From: an uncultured Lachnospiraceae bacterium
GTDB taxonomy: Bacteria > Bacillota > Clostridia > Lachnospirales > Lachnospiraceae
Reading direction: 5' to 3'
Assembly (NCBI GenBank): GCA_946538525.1
Contig: CAMNGU010000012.1
Location: 1 to 34,167 of the forward strand
Length of the DNA stretch: 34,167 nt
The notes under the pieces are model-generated. The model was not told the origin of the DNA. It saw only the letters and a list, made by a program, of their open reading frames with translations, and ran no database searches. Numbering within the stretch: position 1 is the stretch's first letter; every line of letters begins with the position of its first letter. The position numbers and the translations under genes were made by a program. Shown piece after piece: positions 14,938-33,973 of the stretch.

Positions 14938-15010
14938 AAACTTAAATCTAAAATTTTTGAAAACCTAAAATATTTAAAATATTACTGTTGCGCTTTTGTT
15001 ATCCTTTGAG

Positions 15011-15019
15011 TGTTATCAT
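15011..15019 (+). promoter_or_regulatory. Extended -10 promoter of the calpain-like gene
   Basis: TGTTATCAT is an extended -10 (TG, one base, TATCAT at 15014-15019). TTGCGC at 14988 is too far away (20 bases) to be a normal -35. The element lies 36 bases before the ATG at 15055. Confidence 0.4.
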
Positions 15020-15054
15020 TTGTTCAAATAGCAAATTTAACGGAGGGAATATCT

Positions 15055-18000
15055 ATGAAAGAGTATAATGAAGAATTAAATATAGATGATGTTTTGAAAG
15101 ACCAGAAGGGTGACGATGCTTTTGATAAGAGCACACAGTTCTTTAGTAAGTACGGAAAGAACAGCCTTGAAGAATTGGAAAGACATGCCAAGATAAATAC
15201 AGGTTTCCATGATTATGAAGAGGATAGTTTTGCTGATAAGCAGATGATAGGAAATCTCTGCGATCTTTACAAGGTTTTCTTTGAAGGAAATCCGCAATTT
15301 AATTCATTTCTTAAGGAAATGAAGGAATATGCTGAACTGGATCCATATACACATGAGAATTATACAAAAGAAAGACTCTTTGTTGAAAGTATTCCTGCAA
15401 AATTGGATGCGCTTAGAGAACTTATAGAAGCTGAAGAAGAGGAATTACAGGATGAAATAAGGCGTATTGAAGAAACAAAGTTCTCGGAGAAAAATAATGA
15501 TGGAAAGACCCCGGAACAGAAAAAGCTGCTGGAGAAAGAAAAAGCGGAATACGATCGTAAATGGTTATTGAGACAGGAAGTTCTTGATAATAGAAGTAGA
15601 GCTCTCGCTTCCTTTGATATGTATTTTTATAACATGGCAAAAGGTGAGATGGCAGACCTGGACGAATTAAGTGATATAGAGATAAAGATTCCAAAGGTTG
15701 AAGAAGATAAAAAGGCTGATAATAAAGAAAATAATAAAGAAATTAATATAGAAGAAAAGGTTCAGGAAAAGGTAAAAGATATCATCGCCAAGACAAATAA
15801 TGAGAAAGGACGAGGATATGCTGAGTTTTATAATAACAAGGGAGTAAAGTGCTATTATATTAATTCATCAGGAGTTGAATTGGATTTGTCTATAAAAGGA
15901 GAAGGACTTAATACAGTTCAGAAGATGCTTGCTGGTTTGGCCAATAAATCTTCTTCTGAAATTGATATAAAAAATGCTCCAATCTTCCCTCATGAGCCAA
16001 GAATGACTGATGTGTCACAGCATGTTTCTGGTGAATGTTATCTTTATGCTGGACTTCAGAATATAGCCAGACTATATCCTCAGAAGATTAAGGAGATGAT
16101 AAAGGACAATGGAGATGGAACAGCAACAGTAAGACTATGGGGGAAATATAAAAATCCTAAAACTTTCGAGAAGGAATATAGACCGGTTTATGTTCGCGTT
16201 GATAAGAAGATTTCAAGGTTTGGAGCAGTTGGTCTTGAATATGAAAGAATGGCAGAAGACTGTCTGTGGGTTAATCTTATAGAGAGAGCTTATGCCATGA
16301 GTGGACTTCATGAATCGGAGCTAAATGATATTAATCTTCCTCTTAGTCCAGAAGAAATTAAAACTAAAAAATGGAAGCCGAGTGTATCGGGGATTGAGGG
16401 TGGTACAGAAAATTCTTTCCTCGAAAAAATGCTTGGGCCTGATGGTGAAAGTCATTCCATCACAATACCTAATTCGGGTACAATTAGAGATGAAAGACTT
16501 AAGGTAGAAAAAAATATGAAGGCTCAAGAGATTATTAAGGATGTGAATATTACAAATCCTGAGTCTATAGCAAAACATGCTTTTTATAGATTTTATAAAG
16601 ATTATGTTGAAAAAACAGGTGGAGAACTCTTGTCTGAAAAAGAATTTCAGAATCTTTCTGAGGGAGATGTCATTAAACAGGTTGAAAATCTTTGTACACT
16701 ATTTAATGTCAGTGATTTTTTGCATTTGGAGAATGCGTATAAAGTTATCAAAAAGACTGCGGAGAATGTTCTGAAGGAGACAGAAGCATCTGGAAGAAGT
16801 ACAATGTATATTAATCATAAGCTGGGTGCGGCATTTGAGAATGCGGTTGATGAAGTTTTGGCGAAGGCAGAGTATGATGATAATGAAGCTGATAATGCAA
16901 AGTCTGATTTCCGAAAGGTTTATAATCATGTTCGTGATGGTATTAGCGAGATAGGAATTGCTGAAGATATTCCAAAGAGAGAAAAAACAATAGAATTTTA
17001 TAATACAGTAAAAAATCTACTTGATAAAGGACTTCCTGTTTCCTGTTCTACTTATAATAATAGGAAGGATATGCTCTCAGATGAACGCCATGCATATTCT
17101 CTTATTGGAGCTGTGGAAACGGATGGAGTTCCGAAAAGATACTTTTTCAGAATTAAGAATCCTCACACAAAGCTTGAAAGCACTAATGGTGCTGAATATA
17201 GAAATGAGAATGGTGAGATAGTTGGAAAATGGGTGAATGTTAAGGATGGAATATTTGATATTGAATTAGAAAACTTCTGCTATGATTTTGAAAATCTTCA
17301 CTACAATGGTGGTGAGGTTCTTACTAATATGACTGCAAAGAAGATGGTGGGTTACGATATCATTTCTCCTGAGCAGATAGCTGAAAATGAGAAGACTACC
17401 GTAACAAATGATAAGCTGGTTGATTACATGAAAGCTGCGAATGATTTATATGATGCACTTGTTTGCACCAATTCAAAGTATTCAAAAGATTCACAGCAGT
17501 ATAAAGATCTTCTGGAAGGTTTTAAGCAGTTCCGTCATAAGCTGGCTGGAACTAATGGAAAAAGTATTGAATCTTTAAAGAGCTTAACGCAGCCACTTAT
17601 GGGACTTGTTAAAGCTTATGAAGATCATGTAGATGGCCAGATTCTAAGGCCAAGTAAAAGACAGAATAGAAGAAAGAATGTTTGCTCTGGAATTCGTGAA
17701 GTAGTAAGTTCTATTGAAAATGGTCATAATCCTCATCAGGAGTATGAGAAGAAATATGCAAAGACTATCATGGAAAAATATTATGATATTAAAGGTATTG
17801 ATGATAAAGCGGCTATTAATGAAGTGGCAGAAAGACTTTATAACAACAAGGCTTTTAGGGGGATTGCTAATAATACAAATATAATGATTATGAAAAAGCC
17901 TGCTAAAGGTCAGCTTGAAAGAGATATAGAGAAAATCGAAAATAGCCTTAAGGGACGAGGCATTGATAAGAGAATTGATATGGCTACGATGAGAGCAATC

Positions 18001-18129
18001 AAGGATCCTCTTAGTTTAAATGCAGCTGAGAAGAATAATCCGAAAAAAGGGGCTAAAAAAGGCTCTGGTAAAAATGATAAGAAAGACACTAATAAAAAAG
18101 AAGAAGTGAAAAAAGTAGTTAAGAAGTAA
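15055..18129 (+). CDS. Calpain-like (family C2) cysteine protease, large, no signal peptide
   Basis: The product is 1024 residues from ATG 15055, which follows GGAGGG; an in-frame TTG 45 bases earlier has no SD. The calpain core is recognisable by eye. Gln322 and Cys328 lie in QHVSGECYLYAGLQNIA, where the Gln-to-Cys spacing of six equals that of calpain's oxyanion Gln and nucleophile. LWVNLIERAYA matches the calpain WxxLlEKAYA segment. His679 is in DERHAYSLIGA and Asn702 in FRIKNPH, 23 residues apart as in calpain. There are about 350 residues between Cys and His, roughly twice the animal calpain distance, so an insertion is present. Flanks: an acidic helical N-terminus (1-260), and a basic tail of about 35 residues rich in Lys. 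No EF hands, C2 domain, signal peptide or membrane helix is visible. Substrate and location unknown. Confidence 0.8.
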   Translation: MKEYNEELNIDDVLKDQKGDDAFDKSTQFFSKYGKNSLEELERHAKINTGFHDYEEDSFADKQMIGNLCDLYKVFFEGNPQFNSFLKEMKEYAELDPYTHENYTKERLFVESIPAKLDALRELIEAEEEELQDEIRRIEETKFSEKNNDGKTPEQKKLLEKEKAEYDRKWLLRQEVLDNRSRALASFDMYFYNMAKGEMADLDELSDIEIKIPKVEEDKKADNKENNKEINIEEKVQEKVKDIIAKTNNEKGRGYAEFYNNKGVKCYYINSSGVELDLSIKGEGLNTVQKMLAGLANKSSSEIDIKNAPIFPHEPRMTDVSQHVSGECYLYAGLQNIARLYPQKIKEMIKDNGDGTATVRLWGKYKNPKTFEKEYRPVYVRVDKKISRFGAVGLEYERMAEDCLWVNLIERAYAMSGLHESELNDINLPLSPEEIKTKKWKPSVSGIEGGTENSFLEKMLGPDGESHSITIPNSGTIRDERLKVEKNMKAQEIIKDVNITNPESIAKHAFYRFYKDYVEKTGGELLSEKEFQNLSEGDVIKQVENLCTLFNVSDFLHLENAYKVIKKTAENVLKETEASGRSTMYINHKLGAAFENAVDEVLAKAEYDDNEADNAKSDFRKVYNHVRDGISEIGIAEDIPKREKTIEFYNTVKNLLDKGLPVSCSTYNNRKDMLSDERHAYSLIGAVETDGVPKRYFFRIKNPHTKLESTNGAEYRNENGEIVGKWVNVKDGIFDIELENFCYDFENLHYNGGEVLTNMTAKKMVGYDIISPEQIAENEKTTVTNDKLVDYMKAANDLYDALVCTNSKYSKDSQQYKDLLEGFKQFRHKLAGTNGKSIESLKSLTQPLMGLVKAYEDHVDGQILRPSKRQNRRKNVCSGIREVVSSIENGHNPHQEYEKKYAKTIMEKYYDIKGIDDKAAINEVAERLYNNKAFRGIANNTNIMIMKKPAKGQLERDIEKIENSLKGRGIDKRIDMATMRAIKDPLSLNAAEKNNPKKGAKKGSGKNDKKDTNKKEEVKKVVKK

Positions 18130-25448: not shown

Positions 25449-25457
25449 TGCTATAAT
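25449..25457 (+). promoter_or_regulatory. Extended -10 promoter of the YbjQ-like gene
   Basis: TGCTATAAT is a perfect extended -10 with TATAAT at 25452-25457. The -35 (TTTTAA near 25429) is weak. It probably starts a transcript running through the three genes to 32809, since the next gaps are 60 and 61 bases without terminators. Confidence 0.55.
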
Positions 25458-25494: not shown

Positions 25495-26598
25495 GTGGCA
25501 GAAGATATTTTAGTAACTAGTGGAACTGGATTTGAGGGGTATGCAATTTCAGAGTATTTAGGATTTGTATCGAGCCAGCAGATTCTTGGCTCTAATTTCA
25601 TTTCTGGAATAGCAGCAAATGTAGCGGATTTATCCCGTAAGGACATGGCTAAACTTGAGCAGTGCCGTGAGGATGCTGAAACTCAGCTGATTAAAACGGC
25701 TAAGAAGAGGGGCGCAAATGCAATCATTGGAATGAATATTACATATGCACCATTTGAAGCAGGCTCATTTGGCATAATCATGTCGGGTACAGCAGTTAAG
25801 GTTGTAAAGCATATCAATATAACCGATGCAGTTCATAAGGAAATTTATGTAACGAATTATTACAACAGATTAGTTCCGAGACCAGTAAAGATTGTTCTTG
25901 ATGGTGATTCGGAGCAGATAAATATGCGGCTTGTCTGCTATAATTATAACCACGACGATGTTCAGGCACTTCGTTGCGACATCGAATTAACAAATCTCTA
26001 CGATGAGAGACTTGTAATCAAGAATGTTGACTTCGTATTTACAGAGAATATTAATCTTTCAGTTATCGAATCTGATTTCATTAGAAGCAAGGTTGCTCCA
26101 AGTGATCTTCAGCTTCTCAAGGATGCAAAGATTACTCTTACTAAGTATGCGACACCTCGTGGTGTATTCGCAGTAAATGATCAGCCTATAAATGTAACGC
26201 TCAGCACAAGGCGTCTTGAGGCTCTTAAGGCTAAGAGAGGCATCGATGCTGTTGAGAAGTACAGAACAGATGGAATGATCTGGACATGTAACTGCGGACA
26301 TGTAAATGAAGCTGGTTCGGAAGAATGTGTTATCTGTGGTCGTAAGCAGAAAGACATCATGACAAAAGCAAGCTTCAATTACGAAGAAATGATCGATCGC
26401 ATGAAAGAAAAGGAATATGTGGTTGAGATTAAGGATGTTTTGATGCAGTACATCAAGGAGATTGATTCAGGAATGAGACTTGAACTTCTTGAGATTATGG
26501 AGTCAGGACTTCAGTATGAAAAGACTAGAGGCAATATGAAAGAGACTGTTATCGAGAAGGTAGAGAAGGTCTTTGAAGATGCTTCAGTAGATGATTAA
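25495..26598 (+). CDS. YbjQ/UPF0145 domain protein with C-terminal zinc ribbon
   Basis: The product is 367 residues starting with GTG 25495 behind AGGAGGGG. Residues 1-105 are a YbjQ (UPF0145) domain: ILVTSGTGFEGYAISEYLG, then GSNFISGIAANVADL, KRGANAIIGMNI and MSGTAVKV. Family members form oligomeric rings in crystal structures and have been called putative metal binders; activity unknown. A middle beta-rich domain (about 115-250) is not recognised. A small zinc ribbon follows, with Cys265, Cys267, Cys278 and Cys281 around a RanBP2-like W-x-C...N...C-x2-C pattern. The last ~80 residues are helical and acidic. YbjQ proteins are normally about 105 residues, so the extension is unusual. The TPR protein gene follows on the same transcript. 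Confidence 0.8.
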   Translation: MAEDILVTSGTGFEGYAISEYLGFVSSQQILGSNFISGIAANVADLSRKDMAKLEQCREDAETQLIKTAKKRGANAIIGMNITYAPFEAGSFGIIMSGTAVKVVKHINITDAVHKEIYVTNYYNRLVPRPVKIVLDGDSEQINMRLVCYNYNHDDVQALRCDIELTNLYDERLVIKNVDFVFTENINLSVIESDFIRSKVAPSDLQLLKDAKITLTKYATPRGVFAVNDQPINVTLSTRRLEALKAKRGIDAVEKYRTDGMIWTCNCGHVNEAGSEECVICGRKQKDIMTKASFNYEEMIDRMKEKEYVVEIKDVLMQYIKEIDSGMRLELLEIMESGLQYEKTRGNMKETVIEKVEKVFEDASVDD

Positions 26599-26658
26599 GA
26601 TTATTCTAGGGTAGTCCCTAAGAATTATTAAGAAATATATTTGTAGAGGTACGAAAAG

Positions 26659-29262
26659 TTGGGTTCAGGACTTAGCATGGCCAGTATCAACAAAATAAAA
26701 GAGCTTGCAGATGCTCATGAGTATAGTCTTGCTGCTCCAATTCTAGATTCACAGGATCTTGAAAAGTCATATAATGCGCAGTTTTTAAGACTCTGCGGTG
26801 AAATATATGAAAATGTTGGTCGACTCAAAGATGCAAGACATATGTATGTAAAAGCACATGTTCTTGCTCCAGAGGCAACACAAATCATTTTCTCACTTAT
26901 CGAGTTCTATCTTAAGCGTGGTTATTTTGAACTTGCAGAAAGATACTTTGAGGAATATATAGAATATTGCAGTGGAAGAGGGCGTGAACTCTCAAATGTC
27001 CGTTATATTATGAAGAAAGCGAAGCTTCCTGATTTCATAGAGCTTTATGATATGCTCTTTCCATATTATCGAGATAATATGGATGAAAAGTGGAGCTTCG
27101 AGCTTTTGATGCTTACAAAGCTTATCGATAAGAGCGATCTTGATGTTATAGCTTCGGATTACAAGGCTACATTTAAGAATGGTCTTTATACACATTTAGT
27201 TGATGAAGTAGTAGATAATAAGGCAGCAGCATGGGATAATTTCTTCGTTTACGCTGAGAATGAGGTCCCTGATGATGATCCTGATCAGCAGGAAATCCGT
27301 GATATGGAACAGGAACAGCTGAAGGCTGATTATCTAAAACTCAATCCTCCTGAAGAGGAAGAGGCAGTTATCACTGAGATGGTTTCTGTTGAAGAAAAGG
27401 GATCTGGTGAAGGCGGTCTTAAAGAAGGACTCAAGAATGTTAAGAATGTAGAGAATGTAGAGAAGGGCCTGAAAAACTTCATTAAGAAAAGATTCAAGAA
27501 GATTCAGGATGAGGATCTTGAAGGCGAAGAGAACGAATCAGAAGAAGATTCTGATGATGAAAATGATGTTGAAGGCGTTGTAGCTTCTGCTGAAGAGATT
27601 GAAACAGCAGGTGCGACAGATGCAACACCTAAAGCCGAGGAATCTACTGAGAGTGCTCCGGCTGGACCGGATGCAAGCATACTTGGAGGAAGTGCCGAGA
27701 ATGCAGGAGATTCAGCTACTGATGCTGAAAAGGGTGAGGCTGATAAAGAAGCTAATATAGAAGCTAATAAAGAAGCTAATGCAGATTCAAATGCCGAGTC
27801 TGATGCCGAAACAAATGAAAAAGAAGAGTTTGTTCAAGACTTCGTAACCTACGAATTTGATGATGGATTTGCTCCAGAGTCAGATACCATTGCAGGACTC
27901 GAAGATATTGATGATGAATTTGAAGATAGCACTGAAGAAGCATTTAGTGCATTTAGGGATTATGTTCAGTATCAGGATTCTGATCAGGTTGTAGAATCAT
28001 TTGTACCTGATGAAGAAGCTGATGGAGAAGCTGTCGAAGAAGAATATGTTCCTGAAGTAGAGGAAGAACCAGAAACTACTCCAGTATTTGAGAAAGCTGT
28101 AGAGGAACCAGTAGATACTCCGGTATTTGAAAAGACTGTAGAGGAAGAACCAGAAACTACTCCAGTATTCGAGAAAGCTGTAGAGGAACCAGTAGATACT
28201 CCAGTATTTGAAAAGACTGTAGAGGAGCCAGTGGTTACTCCTGTTGAAGAAGAATTTGTACCTGAAGTAGAAGAGTTCGTTCCAGAAGTAGAGGAAGAAC
28301 CAGAAACTACTCCAGTATTTGAAAAGACTGTAGAGGAAGAACCAGAAACTACTCCAGTATTTGAGAAAGCTGTAGAGGAATCAGTAGATACTCCAGTATT
28401 TGAAAAGACTGTAGAGGAGCCGGTTGTTACTCCAGTTGAAGAAGAATTTGTACCTGAAGTAGAAGAGTTCGTTCCAGAAGTAGAAGAAGAACCAGAAACT
28501 ACTCCAGTGTTTGAAAAGACTGTAGAGAAAGAACCAGAAACTACTCCAGTATTCGAGAAAGCTGTAGAGGAACCAGTAGTTACTCCAGTATTTGAAAAGA
28601 CTGTAGAGGAGCCGGTTGTTACTCCAGTAGTTGAGGAGCCAGAGTTTACAACTGTTTCAGAGGAACCAGTTGCATTTACTCCAATTGCAGAAGAAGAGTT
28701 TGTTCCTGATGTTGAGGAATCGCTTGAGGAACTTGAAGAAGCAAATGAAGGCTTCAATACAATTCCAGAACCAGTATATGAGAAGGTTGAGCCATACATT
28801 GCTCCAGAACCAGAGGTAACTCCAGAGCCAGTATACACAGTAGAGCCAGAAGTTACTCCAGAGCCAGTATATACAGCTGAACCAGAAGTTACTCCAGAGC
28901 CAGTATATACAGCTGAACCAGAAGTAACTTCAAAACCAGTATACACAGCTGAGCCGGAAGTTGCTCCAGAAACTGTATTTGCACCAGAGTCAGGGGTTGC
29001 TGAAGAGCCAGTTGCAAGTTCAGACAATCTTCCAGTTCCGGCTTATATGAAGGATGATATTCCTGCAATAGACTTTACACAGTTTAGTAGCGACTTATTC
29101 CCAGGACTTAATACAGTCGATGCGGGAAGTGCAGTCGTAGAAAATAAATTTAACAAAGTAATTGAGACCGAGGGGGAGAAACTCGACGAGGGCTTGAAGG
29201 AAGAGGAAGCTAAGCTTAGAGAAGCTGAAGCACTTCTTGCTTCACTTGGCATTAAGCTCTAG
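26659..29262 (+). CDS. TPR-like protein with long acidic Pro/Glu/Val tandem repeats
   Basis: The product is 867 residues. The start is uncertain: TTG 26659 has GAGG nine bases before it, as in the GTG-started flanking genes; ATG 26677 has a weaker AGGA. Residues about 1-200 are helical TPR-like repeats (FLRLCGEIYENVGRLKDARHMY, AERYFEEYIEY and similar). From about 225 the chain is strongly acidic and disordered-looking. Residues about 454-655 hold repeats of EEPETTPVFEKTV/EEPVDTPVFEK, and 715-770 hold four copies of a 12-residue EPEVTPEPVYTA unit. The C-terminus (about 800-867) returns to a likely folded or helical segment. No signal peptide or membrane helix is seen, so it should be cytoplasmic. 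I do not know the family; a scaffold role is inference from TPRs plus a long linker. Confidence 0.75.
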   Translation: MGSGLSMASINKIKELADAHEYSLAAPILDSQDLEKSYNAQFLRLCGEIYENVGRLKDARHMYVKAHVLAPEATQIIFSLIEFYLKRGYFELAERYFEEYIEYCSGRGRELSNVRYIMKKAKLPDFIELYDMLFPYYRDNMDEKWSFELLMLTKLIDKSDLDVIASDYKATFKNGLYTHLVDEVVDNKAAAWDNFFVYAENEVPDDDPDQQEIRDMEQEQLKADYLKLNPPEEEEAVITEMVSVEEKGSGEGGLKEGLKNVKNVENVEKGLKNFIKKRFKKIQDEDLEGEENESEEDSDDENDVEGVVASAEEIETAGATDATPKAEESTESAPAGPDASILGGSAENAGDSATDAEKGEADKEANIEANKEANADSNAESDAETNEKEEFVQDFVTYEFDDGFAPESDTIAGLEDIDDEFEDSTEEAFSAFRDYVQYQDSDQVVESFVPDEEADGEAVEEEYVPEVEEEPETTPVFEKAVEEPVDTPVFEKTVEEEPETTPVFEKAVEEPVDTPVFEKTVEEPVVTPVEEEFVPEVEEFVPEVEEEPETTPVFEKTVEEEPETTPVFEKAVEESVDTPVFEKTVEEPVVTPVEEEFVPEVEEFVPEVEEEPETTPVFEKTVEKEPETTPVFEKAVEEPVVTPVFEKTVEEPVVTPVVEEPEFTTVSEEPVAFTPIAEEEFVPDVEESLEELEEANEGFNTIPEPVYEKVEPYIAPEPEVTPEPVYTVEPEVTPEPVYTAEPEVTPEPVYTAEPEVTSKPVYTAEPEVAPETVFAPESGVAEEPVASSDNLPVPAYMKDDIPAIDFTQFSSDLFPGLNTVDAGSAVVENKFNKVIETEGEKLDEGLKEEEAKLREAEALLASLGIKL
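28054..28630 (+). repeat. Coding tandem repeats, 192-bp higher-order unit
   Basis: Short modules encoding PVFEKTVEE and PETTPVFEK alternate throughout. A larger unit of 192 bases (64 codons) begins with the GAAGAAGAATTTGTA stretch at 28246 and again at 28438 with few differences. High DNA identity between units points to recent duplication. Confidence 0.85.
28805..28970 (+). repeat. 36-bp coding tandem repeat
   Basis: Four to five 36-base units encode EPVYTAEPEVTP. The middle copies are nearly identical at the DNA level; outer copies carry substitutions such as SKPVYT. Confidence 0.85.
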
Positions 29263-29323
29263 TTATATCCGGAACAGGTTTTAAGTACAAGGTATAGAAA
29301 TGAAATAAGGAGGTAGTAGCACA

Positions 29324-32300
29324 GTGGCTGTTGATCAAAGAGAGGCGCTAATCGCTGCTGTCCGTGCGCAGGTAGAGAAGGAACGTGCGGAGAAACAAAA
29401 GAAACTTGAAAGAGAACAGGAAGCCATGGCTTTATCACATAAGAAGTCTGGCGATAAAAAGAAGGATGAAACCAAGAAATATAAAACTCTTTCACCTGAA
29501 GAACTTCGTCGTATCGAAGAGAAGAAGAGAAAGAAGAGAGCTGAGGAGCTTGGTATTCCTTATGTTCCACTTGAAGATGATATTAAAACTGAAGAACCAA
29601 CTGCAGAAGATATCCTTAAGGCTGCAGAAGGTTTAGGTGGAAAGAAATCAGGAGGTCTTGGTGAGGCTGGGCTTGGCGGCGGCCTTGGAGATACACCTAG
29701 TGAAGGCGGTTTAGGAAGCGCTGGACTTGGCGGAGGACTTGGCGAAGCTGGCCTTGGTGGCGGCCTTGGCGCTGATATTGGAGTTAAAGTTGTTGATGGT
29801 GGGGCTGATGATAAATATTCATTTGCCAAAGGTGAGACAGTATCTAAGGATAATGGTTGGGTAGCAGATGAGTCAGCGCAGCCATTTGATGATATTGATA
29901 GCATAATCCCAACAAATAGAACAACTCCTACAGATGATGTTGATTCAATGTATGACATTGATGATGAGGATGCAGGTTTTGATGCTCAAACATCTAACAT
30001 GGATGGTTTCCAGGATGCCGGAAAGTCTGAAGAAGGTTTTGAAGAGATATCTGATGATAAAGAGCATACAGATGAAGACGGCAAGACTGATAAGAAGCAT
30101 AAGAAAAAGGGAAGCAGCATAGACGATCAGGAGAGAAGACTTGCTGCTGCCAGAGAAAAAGCTGCTGCTCGTAAGAAAGCTGAGTTTGATAAGGACTCTG
30201 CTGAAGATAAGGGCAAGGTTGATATATCAAAGAAATCTGAAGAAGATTCTGCTAAGCAGACTGAAGAGGATGCAGCTGCTAAGGCTGAAGCTAGGCGCAA
30301 GGCTGAGGAAGAGTATAAGAAGAAAGCTGAAGAACTTGCTGAAAAAGAAGCAGAAGAAGCTGCAAGAAAGCAGGCTGAAATTGCTGAGAAGCGTAGAGTT
30401 CTTGAAGAGCAGAGACAGAAAGCTGCAGAAGCTGCTCGTAAAGAAGCAGAAGCTGCACTTCGTCTGAGATATAGAGAAGAAGCAGAGGCTGAGATTAAGG
30501 ATGCTAAGGCTGCTGTTGAAGAAGCTGAGAAGGCCCTTGAAGAAGCTAAGAAGACTGCTGCAGTTAAACCTGAAAATGTTGAGGTTGTTAAGTCTGAGGC
30601 TGAGTCTAGTGCGGAAGCAAAGGTTAAGGAAGCTGAGCTCAACAAGATTGCAGCTGAGGAAGCAGTAAAGGCTGCAGAAGTTGCAGTAAAGGCTGCTAAG
30701 GATTCTGTTAAGGCTAAGGAAGCTGATGTTGAAGCTGTTAAGGCTGAAATCGAAACTGCAGTTCAGAAGGCTGCTACAGATAGAGAAAAGGCTATCTCAG
30801 ATGCTAAGCTTACAATAGATGATGTTAAGGCAAGCATTCTTGAAACTGCTCTTGCGCTTGCTGAAAAGACTATCAGAGAAAAGGCTGCTGAAGAGAAGAA
30901 GGCTAGACAAGCCGAAATGGAAGCTGCTATAGCTGAAGATGATAAGAAGTTTGAAGCTGAAGCTGATGTACTTCGTGGAAATATAGAAGCAGCACATGCA
31001 GAAGTTGATGCAGCTGAAACAAAGGTTGCAGAAGCTGAGTTTAATTTAGAGGCTGCAAAGGTTGAGATTACATCATCTCAGGATAAGGTGAAACTTGCTG
31101 AGGCTGAACTTGAGTCTGCGGAGACTGGTGTTCAGTCAGCTAAAGATAATGTAGAGTTAGTAAAGGGCGGAATTGATGACGCAAAGGCACTTGTATCTGC
31201 TGCTGTTGTAGAAGTCGGTGATGCTCAGGAAGTAGCTGAAGCTGCAAAGGCTGCTGTTGAAGAAGCTCAAAAGGCTCTTGAAGCAGCACAGGCTAAGGAA
31301 GCAGAAGCTCGTGCTGGTGTAGAAGCAGCACAGGCTAAGGTTGAGGCAGCACAGGCTAAGGTGGCTGAAGCTGAGAACAAAGTAACTGAGGCAGAAGCTA
31401 AGGTTAAAGAAGCAGAAGCTAAGGTTGATGACGCTAAGAATGAAGTTGAGATAACAAAGGCTTCAGTAGAAGTTGCAGTAAATGCAAAGGCTGATGCTGA
31501 GGTTGCTCTTGAAGATGCTAAGAATGTTGTTCTTTCTAAGAAGGATGCAGTTAAGGCGATTCAGGATGATCTTAGTGCAATTGATGCTAAGAAAGCACAG
31601 TCTGCAGAAGATAGAAAGAGTGCACTTGAACTTGCAAATAAAGATGCAGAGAAGGTAGTTGCTGAAGATCTTGCTAAGGCTCTTGAACTTGCTGAAAATG
31701 AGTCAGTTGAGAAGGCTGAAGCAGAAGTTGCTATTAAGGCAGAAGAAGCTGCTAAGGCTGTTGATGAAGAGCTTGAGAAGACAAAGGCTGAGATTGAAGC
31801 TAGAGTTAAAAAGGCTGAGGAAGATGTTGAAAAGGCGCATCTTGGTGTTAAGGCTGCTGAGAAGATTAAGAGTAAAGCTGAAGCTGAAGTTGAATCAGTT
31901 GAGAAAGAGATTGAAGCAGCTAAGGCTGAAGTTGAGAAAGAACATCAGAAGACAATTGAGGATGCTGAGGCTAGAGCTAAGGCTGAGTCAGTAGATGTAG
32001 GAGAGTTTGAGAAAGCTCTTGAAGCTGCTAAGGAAGCAGTTAAGGCTGCTGAGCAGAAGGCTAAAGATGTTGATACTATGGAGCTGGATCTTACACATAT
32101 TGCTCCAGGATCAAGACTTCCGCTTGCAGCTAATTACCTTGAGAAATATCTTGGTATTGCAGGATCAGCCGATGAAATCGTTGAAACATTTAACGATATT
32201 GCAGCTAATATGGAAGAGACAATCCGTTCAAGAAATATCGTTATCCTTGGACAGTACGGATTTGGCTCATTATCAGTTGGTGAAGACTTCGCACGAAGCT

Positions 32301-32809
32301 TCTATGATATGGGTATCTGTAGCGCTAGAACAATCGCAAAGATTAAGGCTACTGCACTTAACAAGATGCCATCTGATAAGATTAAAACAAACATGGAGAA
32401 GCTTGCTGGTGGATGTCTCATAATCGATAATGCTGGACTTCTTGTTCCGGATAAACTTGTTGAGATAGTTAATCTTTCAGCTAAGGATGCTAATGACTTT
32501 ATCATCATTCTGACAGGTGAGATTGAGAACCTCTTCAAAGTTCTTACAACTACTGAAGTTTCTTCAGAGTTTGAGTACCTCATCGATATGACAAAGATTG
32601 AAAGATCTGATATGGTTCAGGTTGCTCTTGGTTATATCAAGCAGAGAGGATATAAGACAGAAGACGGAATTGAGAAGAAGATCAACGACATACTTATGGG
32701 TATGGAACAGGGTAACCTGGATAGAATGATCACAGCTATCGATGAAGCAATCGCTAAATGTGATAAGAGAGATGATAACAAGAAGATTATCATTTCAGCA
32801 GACTTCTAG
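29324..32809 (+). CDS. Long coiled-coil protein with C-terminal degenerate AAA+ domain
   Basis: The product is 1161 residues, GTG start behind AAGGAGGT. Residues 1-95 are a charged helical head; about 104-152 are Gly-rich GLGGGLG repeats; 160-260 are acidic. Residues about 265-915 are a very long Ala/Glu/Lys heptad-like coiled coil, rich in AEAKV-type units. The last ~240 residues look like an AAA+ module of the CbxX/SpoVK kind. NIVILGQYGFGSLSV (Walker A at 976-983) has Ser-Leu where Lys-Thr/Ser is needed, and LIIDNAG has Asp1035 but Asn1036 where the catalytic Glu should be. A sensor-like FIIILTGEIENLF and SSEFEYLIDM (SRF-like position) follow. ATP hydrolysis is therefore unlikely. It has no signal peptide or membrane helix. 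It is likely co-expressed with the TPR and YbjQ-like proteins; a structural or filament-forming role is inference. Confidence 0.78.
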   Translation: MAVDQREALIAAVRAQVEKERAEKQKKLEREQEAMALSHKKSGDKKKDETKKYKTLSPEELRRIEEKKRKKRAEELGIPYVPLEDDIKTEEPTAEDILKAAEGLGGKKSGGLGEAGLGGGLGDTPSEGGLGSAGLGGGLGEAGLGGGLGADIGVKVVDGGADDKYSFAKGETVSKDNGWVADESAQPFDDIDSIIPTNRTTPTDDVDSMYDIDDEDAGFDAQTSNMDGFQDAGKSEEGFEEISDDKEHTDEDGKTDKKHKKKGSSIDDQERRLAAAREKAAARKKAEFDKDSAEDKGKVDISKKSEEDSAKQTEEDAAAKAEARRKAEEEYKKKAEELAEKEAEEAARKQAEIAEKRRVLEEQRQKAAEAARKEAEAALRLRYREEAEAEIKDAKAAVEEAEKALEEAKKTAAVKPENVEVVKSEAESSAEAKVKEAELNKIAAEEAVKAAEVAVKAAKDSVKAKEADVEAVKAEIETAVQKAATDREKAISDAKLTIDDVKASILETALALAEKTIREKAAEEKKARQAEMEAAIAEDDKKFEAEADVLRGNIEAAHAEVDAAETKVAEAEFNLEAAKVEITSSQDKVKLAEAELESAETGVQSAKDNVELVKGGIDDAKALVSAAVVEVGDAQEVAEAAKAAVEEAQKALEAAQAKEAEARAGVEAAQAKVEAAQAKVAEAENKVTEAEAKVKEAEAKVDDAKNEVEITKASVEVAVNAKADAEVALEDAKNVVLSKKDAVKAIQDDLSAIDAKKAQSAEDRKSALELANKDAEKVVAEDLAKALELAENESVEKAEAEVAIKAEEAAKAVDEELEKTKAEIEARVKKAEEDVEKAHLGVKAAEKIKSKAEAEVESVEKEIEAAKAEVEKEHQKTIEDAEARAKAESVDVGEFEKALEAAKEAVKAAEQKAKDVDTMELDLTHIAPGSRLPLAANYLEKYLGIAGSADEIVETFNDIAANMEETIRSRNIVILGQYGFGSLSVGEDFARSFYDMGICSARTIAKIKATALNKMPSDKIKTNMEKLAGGCLIIDNAGLLVPDKLVEIVNLSAKDANDFIIILTGEIENLFKVLTTTEVSSEFEYLIDMTKIERSDMVQVALGYIKQRGYKTEDGIEKKINDILMGMEQGNLDRMITAIDEAIAKCDKRDDNKKIIISADF
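29634..29780 (+). repeat. Gly-rich GLGGGLG coding repeat
   Basis: Four imperfect units of GLGEAGLGGGLG and similar, in the N-terminal third of the coiled-coil protein. They probably form a flexible hinge between the charged head and the rod. Confidence 0.75.
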
Positions 32810-32837
32810 ATATTACAAAATTAAAGACTTTATGTAT

Positions 32838-32863
32838 GTGCCGAGACCTGTTGGTTTCGGCAC
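32838..32863 (+). terminator. Strong hairpin after the coiled-coil gene
   Basis: GTGCCGAGACC (32838-32848) pairs with GGTTTCGGCAC (32853-32863) over 11 bp with one G-U and a TGTT loop. The T run after it is poor (TACTTATGTG), so termination may be partial. It lies 29 bases after the stop codon. Confidence 0.65.
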
Positions 32864-32968
32864 TACTTATGTGTTATGATATTTTGATGCAAATTCTTAA
32901 TAATATATGTTTTGTTTGTGGCGGATTTAGTGTATTATAGTCACAGAAAAAATTTTCATGGAGAAATT

Positions 32969-33973
32969 ATGTATCGTATAGACATTGGAATTGATTTAGG
33001 AACCTCAAAGGTTTCTGTATATATGAGAGACAAGGGAATAGTTATCAATCAGCCTTCGGTCATTGCGTATGAGAAGAAGGAGAAAAAAATTATCGCCGTA
33101 GGTAAGAAAGCGAAGAAGATGCTGGGAAAGACAGGCGAAGGTGTTATCGTAGCTCAGCCTATAAAGAATGGAGTTATATCCGAATATGCCCTTGCAGAAA
33201 GAATGATTAAGGCCTTCGTTAAGAATGCTCTTCGTAAGAGAAGGATTCTTGGCCGTCCGAATATCTGTGTGGCTGTACCTCAGGGAATCACTGAAGTAGA
33301 GCGTAGAGCTGTTGAAGATGCAATCGTAAAGACTGGTGCAAAGGAAGTCTTTCTGCTGGAGTCACCTATTGCGGCGGCTCTTGGAACCGGCGTAGATATC
33401 ATGGAAACCATGGGCCATATGGTCGTAGATATTGGCGGTGGTACCACAGATATAGCTGTCATCTCAGCCGGTGACATTTCCTATGGAATATCCCTTAAGG
33501 TTGGTGGAGATGATTTCACAGAAGCCATTGCCAGATATGTTCGTCGTAAGTACAGTATCGAGATGGGCGAGCAGTCTGCGGAAGATGCAAAGATAGAGAT
33601 AGCCAGCGTTATATACAGAAAGGTCGACAGTTCCTACGAGATTAAAGGTAAGAACATGGTAAATGGTCTTCCTGTCCGCCTGGATCTCAGTGCAAATGAG
33701 ACTATTGAGCCACTTGAGGAGATAACCAGCCAGATTATTGACGGTATTACTCAGGTGCTTGAAAAGGCTGAACCTGAAATTGTTGCGGATGTGGCTAAGG
33801 AAGGTATTCTTCTTTCAGGTGGAGGAAGTCTTATCTACGGAATGGATAGACTTATCTCAGACAGAACCGGAATTAGAACAATCATTTCAGATGAGCCTGA
33901 AAATGTGGTTGCTGCCGGTGCGGGACTTGCAGGTGAGTATATCATGGTTCAGGATGAAGAAAGTAAAAAGTAA
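32969..33973 (+). CDS. mreB: MreB/Mbl-like bacterial actin
   Basis: The product is 334 residues from ATG 32969, which has GGAGA five bases upstream; an in-frame TTG at 32912 would add 19 residues that do not fit the family and is rejected. It is an ATP-binding actin homologue that organises side-wall synthesis at the inner membrane face. Actin motifs: phosphate-1 DLGTSK (9-14), phosphate-2 VDIGGGTTD (153-161) and adenosine motif GILLSGGGSLIYGMD near 280. ESPIAAALG and VGGDDF are also typical of MreB. No mreC or mreD follows, since a strong terminator ends the unit, so this is a solitary MreB or Mbl paralogue. Which paralogue it is cannot be told without an alignment. Confidence 0.92.
   Translation: MYRIDIGIDLGTSKVSVYMRDKGIVINQPSVIAYEKKEKKIIAVGKKAKKMLGKTGEGVIVAQPIKNGVISEYALAERMIKAFVKNALRKRRILGRPNICVAVPQGITEVERRAVEDAIVKTGAKEVFLLESPIAAALGTGVDIMETMGHMVVDIGGGTTDIAVISAGDISYGISLKVGGDDFTEAIARYVRRKYSIEMGEQSAEDAKIEIASVIYRKVDSSYEIKGKNMVNGLPVRLDLSANETIEPLEEITSQIIDGITQVLEKAEPEIVADVAKEGILLSGGGSLIYGMDRLISDRTGIRTIISDEPENVVAAGAGLAGEYIMVQDEESKK

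Follow-up and report, generated by a model that had tools for sequence, protein, structure and literature searches.

A tetratricopeptide repeat and pseudo-AAA+ protein of the Lachnospiraceae, split over two neighbouring genes beside a YbjQ-zinc-finger gene

Introduction

AAA+ proteins of the SpoVK/CbbX/EccA clade are described in PMC10659427 as chaperones dedicated to particular clients, which they recruit by N-terminal domains of variable type, e.g., tetratricopeptide repeats (TPRs) in EccA, and as serving assembly and not degradation. Known members are CbbX (CbxX/CfxQ), the red-type Rubisco activase, EccA of type VII secretion and SpoVK, a MurG chaperone in sporulation. Here, three adjacent genes, two of them related to this clade, are analyzed on the + strand of a 34,167-nucleotide stretch from an uncultured Lachnospiraceae bacterium (NCBI GenBank assembly GCA_946538525.1, contig CAMNGU010000012.1, positions 1 to 34,167 of the forward strand), referred to as the window. 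Gene 1 (25495..26598, GTG start, 367 residues) encodes a YbjQ domain, a beta-rich middle, a CxC-CxxC zinc finger and a helical tail, gene 2 (26659..29262, TTG start, 867 residues) a TPR domain with an acidic repeat linker, and gene 3 (29324..32809, GTG start, 1161 residues) an N-terminal motif, glycine-rich and acidic segments, a helical rod and a pseudo-AAA+ head. The TPR/acidic-linker part and the AAA-like head together correspond to one protein which occurs in nearly all sampled genera of the family, so that genes 2 and 3 represent a single TPR-acidic-linker-AAA-like protein in split form and thus one ancestral module, with gene 2 as its N-terminal half.

The arrangement is best filed as an EccA-like TPR-AAA+ protein which is catalytically degenerate and split. 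The fused form of relatives resembles EccA by joining a TPR N-terminus to a CbxX-type AAA+ C-terminus, and the profile of the fused heads matches EccA1 at 1.9e-10; EccA1 is not among the 60 matches listed for the search with the TPR profile. In contrast to EccA, the head is degenerate, the linkers contain more than 20% aspartate and glutamate in 48 of the 49 fused proteins measured, and two chains are encoded in the window, among whose scanned open reading frames (ORFs) no ESX gene was recognized. Unlike CbbX, the split clade features neither the Walker A lysine nor the Walker B glutamate nor the sensor-1 GY signature, and it places the TPRs in a separate chain and includes a long rod and an acidic linker. 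SpoVK belongs to the same AAA+ clade, and weak NCBIfam SpoVK matches far below the cut-off were obtained for a short paralogue of the head and for four of five fused proteins scanned. The split clade differs from SpoVK by the missing catalytic motifs and in its N-terminal parts; moreover, the family-wide occurrence seen here contrasts with the limitation of SpoVK to sporulation given in PMC10659427. For the members scanned, Pfam and NCBIfam offer sub-threshold TPR, P-loop, CbbX, SpoVK, EccA and coiled-coil matches only and no named family. Likewise, the papers listed by literature searches include no account of the protein or of the gene set, in agreement with the initial annotation, which was drawn up from the DNA letters alone and knew of no described system with this composition.

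Genes 2 and 3 as Halves of One Protein

A search with the gene 3 head through 299 genomes of the family, representing 298 genera, gave matches in 217 genera, most of those listed showing 20-30% identity in long ORFs whose N-termini, where read, are TPR domains like that of gene 2. The best AAA matches of this search were inspected as 52 fused loci; TPR and head stand in one ORF in 51 of them, and the remaining locus is cut short. Profiles were built from 41 of these loci, among them the single-ORF locus L300 of genome G203. The comparison set consisted of named relatives, of which 80 out of 121 were taken in and 41 left out; they are mostly titled Lachnospiraceae or Eubacterium, many stem from the rumen, and Eubacterium ruminantium ATCC 17233 is included. 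The loci of these genomes are related to one another, so that counts of gene order and promoter elements are not independent events. The TPR profile of the 41 fused N-termini finds gene 2 of the window (1.8e-24), all 77 ORFs of gene 2 type in the named loci (E 1.3e-14 or better) and 51 fused ORFs, with no further match in the set of 4152 ORFs. In the same way, the profile of the fused heads finds 42/42 gene 3 heads and gene 3 of the window (1.8e-42).

Because L300 is among the 41 loci and close to the split form, the test was repeated without it. The TPR profile then still matched 76 of the 77 gene 2 ORFs (1.2e-12 or better) and gene 2 of the window (9.5e-20), and the head profile all 42 gene 3 heads (2.7e-23 or better) and gene 3 of the window (9e-38). 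In a profile-profile comparison (hhalign), also without L300, the TPR domain of gene 2 (residues 10-181, 26686..27201) proved homologous to the fused N-termini with 99.5% over 172 columns, and the head reached 99.9% over 222 columns. Among the 11 independent loci outside the profile, ten are matched by the TPR profile and all by the head profile. Furthermore, both domains share one ORF in nine of 12 additional family loci which were low-scoring or odd.

The junction between both halves can be traced in L300. This 1108-residue ORF comprises a gene-2-like TPR domain, a charged linker, EELIAAVRAQVERERA at residue 549, a glycine-rich part, a rod rich in lysine, glutamate and alanine, and the head. 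EELIAAVRAQVERERA is the counterpart of the N-terminal motif of gene 3, DQREALIAAVRAQVEKERAEK (29333..29395), and is placed at the internal junction. The motif occurs in 43 of the 4152 ORFs, i.e., in L300, in 37 gene 3 ORFs with head and in five shorter ORFs in split loci, the listed positions of which fit pieces of gene 3. The initial annotation had read each of the three genes as a known fold with a large lineage-specific extension; the fused orthologues replace this picture by one module for genes 2 and 3, and three unrelated lineage-specific inventions were rejected on these grounds.

Library searches yielded little: Pfam gives sub-threshold TPR matches for gene 2 and none for gene 3, and the assignment of the gene 2 N-terminus relies on its match to the TPR family profile of the fused N-termini. 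The linker of gene 2 contains 17-31% glutamate, with a net charge of -173 for the whole protein, which bears out the acidic repeat linker named initially. Its C-terminal helical motif (29170..29259), ending KLREAEALLASLGIKL, is similar in most, but not all, split copies shown. In gene 3, the low-complexity part includes a conserved island, DSIIPTNRTTPTDDVDSMYDIDDED (29897..29971), in 12 of 16 copies shown. It is followed by about 640 residues rich in lysine, glutamate and alanine (residues 281-920, 30164..32083), which are read as a helical rod with heptad-like repeats: the identity autocorrelation reaches 1.70 times expectation at lag 7 and 1.52 times at lag 14, and valine, isoleucine, leucine, methionine and phenylalanine recur with a period of 7.0, a peak which is absent once alanine is counted as hydrophobic. 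Estimated from the residue number, the rod may be up to about 95 nm long. The rod of another genus (L154) has a repeat length of eight residues, which looks like a single charged helix. Gene 3 was also considered as an SMC protein, which was rejected: the NCBIfam SMC matches (E 2.4e-7, far below the cut-off) are confined to the coiled-coil region, and a head of SMC type was not detected. A membrane helix is not expected in any of the three proteins, since the highest 19-residue hydropathy is 1.35, and their cytoplasmic placement in the initial annotation is retained.

Catalytic Loss in the AAA+ Head

The head of gene 3 (residues 923-1161, 32090..32806) has an AAA+ fold with CbbX as nearest relative according to fold and profile comparisons. 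At the Walker A position (32249..32272), GQYGFGSL has lost the lysine, and at the Walker B position (32426..32431), D-N has lost the catalytic glutamate, so that the degenerate state of the AAA+ domain recognized at the outset is confirmed. The extent of this loss was determined in a census of motifs, for which, as for the tree, split heads were picked by hand (17 of genus type and seven others). Walker A GxxxxGK[ST] is present in none of 33 split-clade heads (split forms, L300 and short paralogues), in 44 of 51 fused heads and in all nine readable CbxX controls. Walker B DE was found in 0/33 split-clade heads, in a single one of the 51 fused heads and in 10/10 CbxX controls. For the sensor-1 GY signature, the definition of which was taken from PMC10659427, the census covers the commonest strings only; at this place, the majority of the split heads printed have TGE or TGQ, the commonest fused form is ED, and the CbxX controls printed have GY.

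In the head tree, the split heads group with L300 and the short paralogues in a single clade (support 100/99), L300 lying inside it, and the deep root is weak (74/46). Owing to this root and to the position of L300 among split forms, re-fusion and repeated fission were not told apart as the direction of change. The short paralogues of the head measure about 370-465 residues, are devoid of TPR and rod, and are encoded elsewhere in many genomes of the genus, e.g., at G000:C21:6814-7983 on the minus strand (L114); further loci are L113, L115-L119 and L121, and the neighbours vary between the loci read. In addition, the genome from which the window derives encodes active-looking CbxX-type proteins with intact motifs (L309, L310).

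Organization of the Locus

The three genes are spaced by 60 bases (genes 1 and 2) and 61 bases (genes 2 and 3), and the Shine-Dalgarno-like sequences AGGAGG, AGAGG and AAGGAGG, read from the DNA, lie 9-10 bases 5' of the three starts. In neither of the two inner gaps did a terminator scan of the window report a site on the + strand, and the GTG/TTG starts, ribosome-binding distance of about nine bases, short gaps and missing internal terminator reported initially thus passed the ORF, start and terminator checks. Among the named genomes, the order from YbjQ to TPR is kept in 77/77 loci with at least 800 bases downstream, and that from TPR to gene 3 in all 44 loci where the TPR ORF stops well inside the contig, gene 3 being cut by the contig end in two of these. 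Upstream of gene 1, the extended -10 promoter element TGCTATAAT (25449..25457) matches TGNTATAAT, which is common in the folA-YbjQ gaps of relatives, namely in 66 of 78 against 1.5 expected from shuffles. TGNTATAAT was encountered in none of 72 thyA-folA, 77 YbjQ-TPR and 39 TPR-AAA gaps and in six of 39 AAA-mreB gaps.

Downstream of gene 3, a strong RNA hairpin without a T run (32834..32866) is located in a stretch (32805-32900) with a z-score of -4.29, none of 200 shuffles being as stable. It precedes a mreB paralogue (32969..33973, + strand), which probably starts at the ATG at 32969 rather than at the first TTG at 32912; the mreB ORFs of the cluster listed encode 327-389 residues, apart from one cut by a contig end. 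A plain TATAAT is contained in 25 of 39 AAA-mreB gaps, with 7.8 expected. Because of the gene order, the promoter element only before gene 1 and the hairpin after gene 3, genes 1-3 look like one transcript and mreB, probably outside the operon, like the next one. The view of the three genes as one unit is hence upheld. Separate transcripts within the set were rejected, as the TGNTATAAT element was found in 0/77 and 0/39 of the inner gaps. This rejection is opposed by the general two-hexamer promoter scan of the window, which lacks TGCTATAAT before gene 1 in its list and gave 17 promoter-like sites against 21.9 in shuffles, i.e., fewer than expected from shuffling. A conserved structured RNA in the set was rejected as well, since Rfam gives no match in the window and the folding of the inner gaps is hardly more stable than that of shuffled sequence (z -1.58 and -0.50).

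The mreB gene follows gene 3 in 41/41 named loci with enough sequence and the split pair in six of seven other genera (7/8 together with the genus of the window); in the remaining genus, G080, an argininosuccinate synthase gene is found at this place. In 17 of 30 genus genomes searched, the mreB of the cluster is accompanied by a second MreB of about 45% identity, and the other 13 feature the second type or pieces only. The link of mreB to the gene set is positional only. In a further part of the window (15010-18129), a protein of 1039 residues with a calpain-type Peptidase_C2 match (32.8 bits, cut-off 23.8) is encoded; calpain-type peptidases are unusual in bacteria.

The YbjQ-Zinc-Finger Protein

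Residues 5-103 of gene 1 (25507..25803) constitute a YbjQ domain above the Pfam cut-off (PF01906, YbjQ_1; 60.7 bits, cut-off 23, E 2.4e-16) and match solved YbjQ/UPF0145 structures deposited with five chains each (2gtc at 9.5e-19). The solved relatives listed comprise 103-133 residues versus 367 in gene 1, which differs from them by about 260 extra residues forming the beta-rich middle, the zinc finger and the helical tail. The finger, W263-x-C265-x-C267-x3-N271-x6-C278-x2-C281 (26281..26337), is invariant in 10/10 rows of a first and 30/30 rows of a larger alignment, so that the YbjQ-type domain and the zinc ribbon expected for this gene both stand. With its first cysteine pair, C-x-C, the finger departs from W-x-C-x(2,4)-C-x3-N-x6-C-x2-C, which we take to be the RanBP2-type consensus, and Pfam gives no zinc-finger match in gene 1. 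For the rest of the protein, the structure search at E < 0.001 matched YbjQ-type structures only, and the structure model is modest (predicted local distance difference test, pLDDT, 77; predicted template modelling score, pTM, 0.42); for both reasons, no fold is claimed beyond the YbjQ domain. By analogy with the five-chain relatives, the gene 1 product may contribute a zinc-finger-bearing ring to the assembly.

A close form of gene 1 (46-67% identity, full length) was found in eight mutually related genera of the 299-genome family sample, the same eight in which the split pair was detected; the fusion state was inspected in a part of the genera of the family. Remoter relatives with 28-31% identity, four full-length and one partial, are found in other genera. 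Three of them (L178, L179 and L180 in G313, G227 and G215), which show the YbjQ-beta-finger-helix arrangement in full length, gave no TPR or AAA reference match in the fetched 4-kb stretches.

Distribution and Exceptions

A genus search covered 80 genomes, comprising 49 of the genus of the window (its own included) and 31 from other families of the order. Full-length YbjQ protein is encoded in 42 of the 49 genus genomes, which are also those with the TPR of gene 2. Neither was found in the 31 genomes of other families, eight of which have short YbjQ-domain matches. Since gene 2 is the only strong TPR copy in the genus, with one extra weak match in two genomes, no fused copy is seen beside the split pair, and the two forms are distributed in a complementary way. 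At the family level, 288 of the 298 genera sampled give a match to the TPR profile, with more than one match in 15 of 289 matching genomes. In a class-wide sample of 246 genomes, 30 outside the family match the TPR profile at 1e-3, and only G525 does so better than 1e-8. In this genome of another family, a 1336-residue protein (L331:2476-6486, minus strand) combines a related TPR with four subsequent CbxX-like AAA stretches and is a possible relative of the ancestral form.

The split pair was detected in seven further genera of the family sample (G080, G114, G143, G179, G201, G247 and G254), with TPR and AAA neighbouring in all of them; gene 3 is in pieces in G201, and the two genes of G254 are parted by a masked stretch and a small ORF. 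YbjQ adjoins the pair in G114, G143, G201 and G247. A gene for a rhomboid-family membrane protease (Pfam 3e-31 or better) stands directly before the TPR gene in three genera (L154:11584-12600, L155:5289-6308 and L157:11216-12247).

Several observations weigh against a fixed three-gene set and against genes 2 and 3 as halves of a family-wide protein. YbjQ is separated from the pair by a rhomboid gene in G254 and by carbohydrate-kinase, HAD-phosphatase and rhomboid genes in G179, and it is located on another contig beside thyA in G080. The co-occurrence proposed by the initial annotation consequently holds in the genus of the window and in part beyond it, YbjQ being adjacent in four of the seven other split genera, interrupted in two and on another contig in one. 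The one-ORF form of G203 is without a YbjQ match, and seven of the 49 genus genomes lack both TPR and YbjQ, among them G045, which is 97% complete. Two of the 44 loci with conserved order, L204 and L207, have gene 3 divided into two ORFs; in a third, L253, the TPR ORF and gene 3 are 821 bases apart. Among the 12 odd family loci, G118 and G255 have a TPR without a detectable head in the same ORF; the third exception, G267, is near a contig edge. Finally, the TyrRS-thyA-folA neighbours are likewise conserved, so that order within one genus is partly inertia. As YbjQ adjacency is broken in some split genera, the core consists of the TPR-AAA pair, which YbjQ accompanies more loosely and without a constant place next to it.

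Alternative Explanations

The constant position of mreB allows for a cytoskeletal or cell-shape scaffold, in which the rod and the pseudo-AAA+ head would organize the neighbouring MreB or envelope synthesis. Apart from the 41/41 named loci and 7/8 split-pair genera with mreB downstream, this is favoured by the second MreB beside that of the cluster in 17/30 genomes and by the action of the related chaperone SpoVK on the peptidoglycan enzyme MurG, as stated in PMC10659427. However, no MreB homologue occurs within two genes of the fused gene in any of the 52 inspected loci, and mreB has promoter-like sites of its own (TATAAT in 25/39 gaps) and is preceded by a hairpin. A scaffold for MreB is therefore considered unlikely, and of the cytoskeletal link drawn initially the neighbourhood of mreB stands, whereas the separate promoter-like sites, the hairpin and the fused loci speak against the link itself. 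A client-specific chaperone which still uses nucleotide would instead make the fused form an ATP-binding switch and provide the split form with an active CbxX paralogue as partner. The Walker A K[ST] kept in 44/51 fused heads and the intact-motif proteins L309 and L310 in the same genome as the window agree with this, yet Walker B DE is retained in just 1/51 fused and 0/33 split-clade heads, the split clade is deprived of the Walker A lysine too, and no active CbxX paralogue was seen as a conserved neighbour, which leaves a nucleotide-driven function very unlikely.

Further explanations arise from the neighbours of the fused gene, which within two genes include glgB-like (21 of the 52 loci), ksgA (11), jetC-like (10), DUF6240 (7) and glgP-like (4) genes and also recR; Pfam domains bear out the references of GlgB, GlgP, KsgA and RecR type (CBM_48/alpha-amylase and carbohydrate phosphorylase for GlgB/GlgP), and other neighbours were tentatively named IleRS and EtfAB. 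The ten jetC-like loci are L269:8292-18001, L160:8157-17627, L163:54-9660, L262, L266, L267, L274, L278, L289 and L295, and a DUF6240 protein (Pfam 1.3e-109) is encoded after glgB near the fused gene at L158:7116-10010 and similar loci. Deriving the function of the fused protein from these neighbours was rejected as they are too mixed, and ksgA and DUF6240 favour none of the envelope, glycogen and SMC-type readings. A scaffold or targeting factor near glycogen granules would explain the glgB-like genes, which are distributed over several tree branches, and the four glgP-like ones, but 31/52 loci have no glgB that near and show ksgA, recR, jetC-like or DUF6240 neighbours, and the conserved neighbours of the split clade are thyA/folA and mreB and not glycogen genes; a role in glycogen metabolism thus appears highly improbable. 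Alternatively, the fused protein could work with an SMC-type partner, JetABC (type III Wadjet-like), encoded just upstream in part of the family. The jetC-like genes stem from several tree branches, JetA3 matches lie upstream in L269 and L160, JetB3 and JetC3 are additionally present in L269, and L163 has JetB3 and JetC3, the matches being nearly full length. The genes of such systems are ordered JetABCD; the next gene downstream gave no JetD match in the four loci scanned (L269, L160, L274 and L262), and by analogy the TPR-AAA protein may occupy the place expected for JetD. Nevertheless, 42/52 fused loci are without a jetC-like gene within two genes, and the neighbours read around split pairs include no such gene, so that little probability is assigned to this partnership. 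Gene 1, lastly, might be functionally unrelated and merely share a promoter with genes 2 and 3, which would be compatible with the preferred reading of the latter two. This is in line with the broken YbjQ adjacency in 3/8 split-pair genera and with the remote relatives (28-31%) in other genera, three of which have no AAA or TPR reference match in the 4-kb stretches; it is at odds with the detection of the close YbjQ form in exactly the eight, albeit related, genera in which the split pair was found and is judged rather unlikely.

Proposed Mechanism and Significance

The preferred reading is that genes 2 and 3, as separated halves of a family-wide protein, probably form an assembly scaffold which does not hydrolyse ATP and is akin to the chaperones CbbX, SpoVK and EccA. 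The computations show the homology, the fold and its catalytic loss as well as fusion, fission and the organization of the operon; re-association, oligomerization and the scaffold role are inferred. In the Eubacterium ruminantium-like clade, the protein would be made as two chains, a TPR chain for partner binding and a helical rod with a dead AAA+ head, with one operon supplying both of them and the YbjQ-zinc-finger protein. The chains could re-join via conserved linear motifs, i.e., the C-terminal helix of gene 2 and the N-terminus of gene 3. The head might assemble into an AAA-type oligomer which serves as a static hub, reach would come from the rod, and TPR and acidic linker would recruit the client, so that the whole would be a scaffold dedicated to assembly and not driven through a cycle by ATP. 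For the fused protein, analogy to the clade suggests that the TPR recruits a client and presents it to the AAA-type oligomer. Since the clade is characterized by recruiting chaperones in PMC10659427 and the motor is dead, it is proposed to hold rather than remodel this client. Regarding client candidates, mreB and the SpoVK-MurG relation favour the envelope, the glgB neighbours glycogen, and the jetC-like neighbours SMC-type DNA handling in part of the family.

In a wider sense, the Lachnospiraceae may possess a family-wide, essentially single-copy TPR-acidic-linker-pseudo-AAA+ hub, which would have developed stepwise from an ATP-driven chaperone of the CbxX/EccA type via an ATP-binding form to a dead scaffold, one rumen clade having divided it between two chains, one with a rod up to about 95 nm long, and gained a YbjQ ring with zinc fingers; this view is held tentatively, with somewhat less than even confidence. 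With its TPR half in 288/298 sampled genera of a family which is dominant in gut and rumen, and a single outside genome below 1e-8 among 246, the protein is a candidate for a family-defining core function without a name in the libraries searched. The natural fission marks a domain boundary and predicts a binary contact between the products of genes 2 and 3. Besides, it adds candidate partners, namely the YbjQ-zinc-finger protein, the MreB paralogue and, in part of the family, JetABC. Through the graded loss of ATPase motifs, the question of what an AAA+ ring does without ATP becomes askable within one family.

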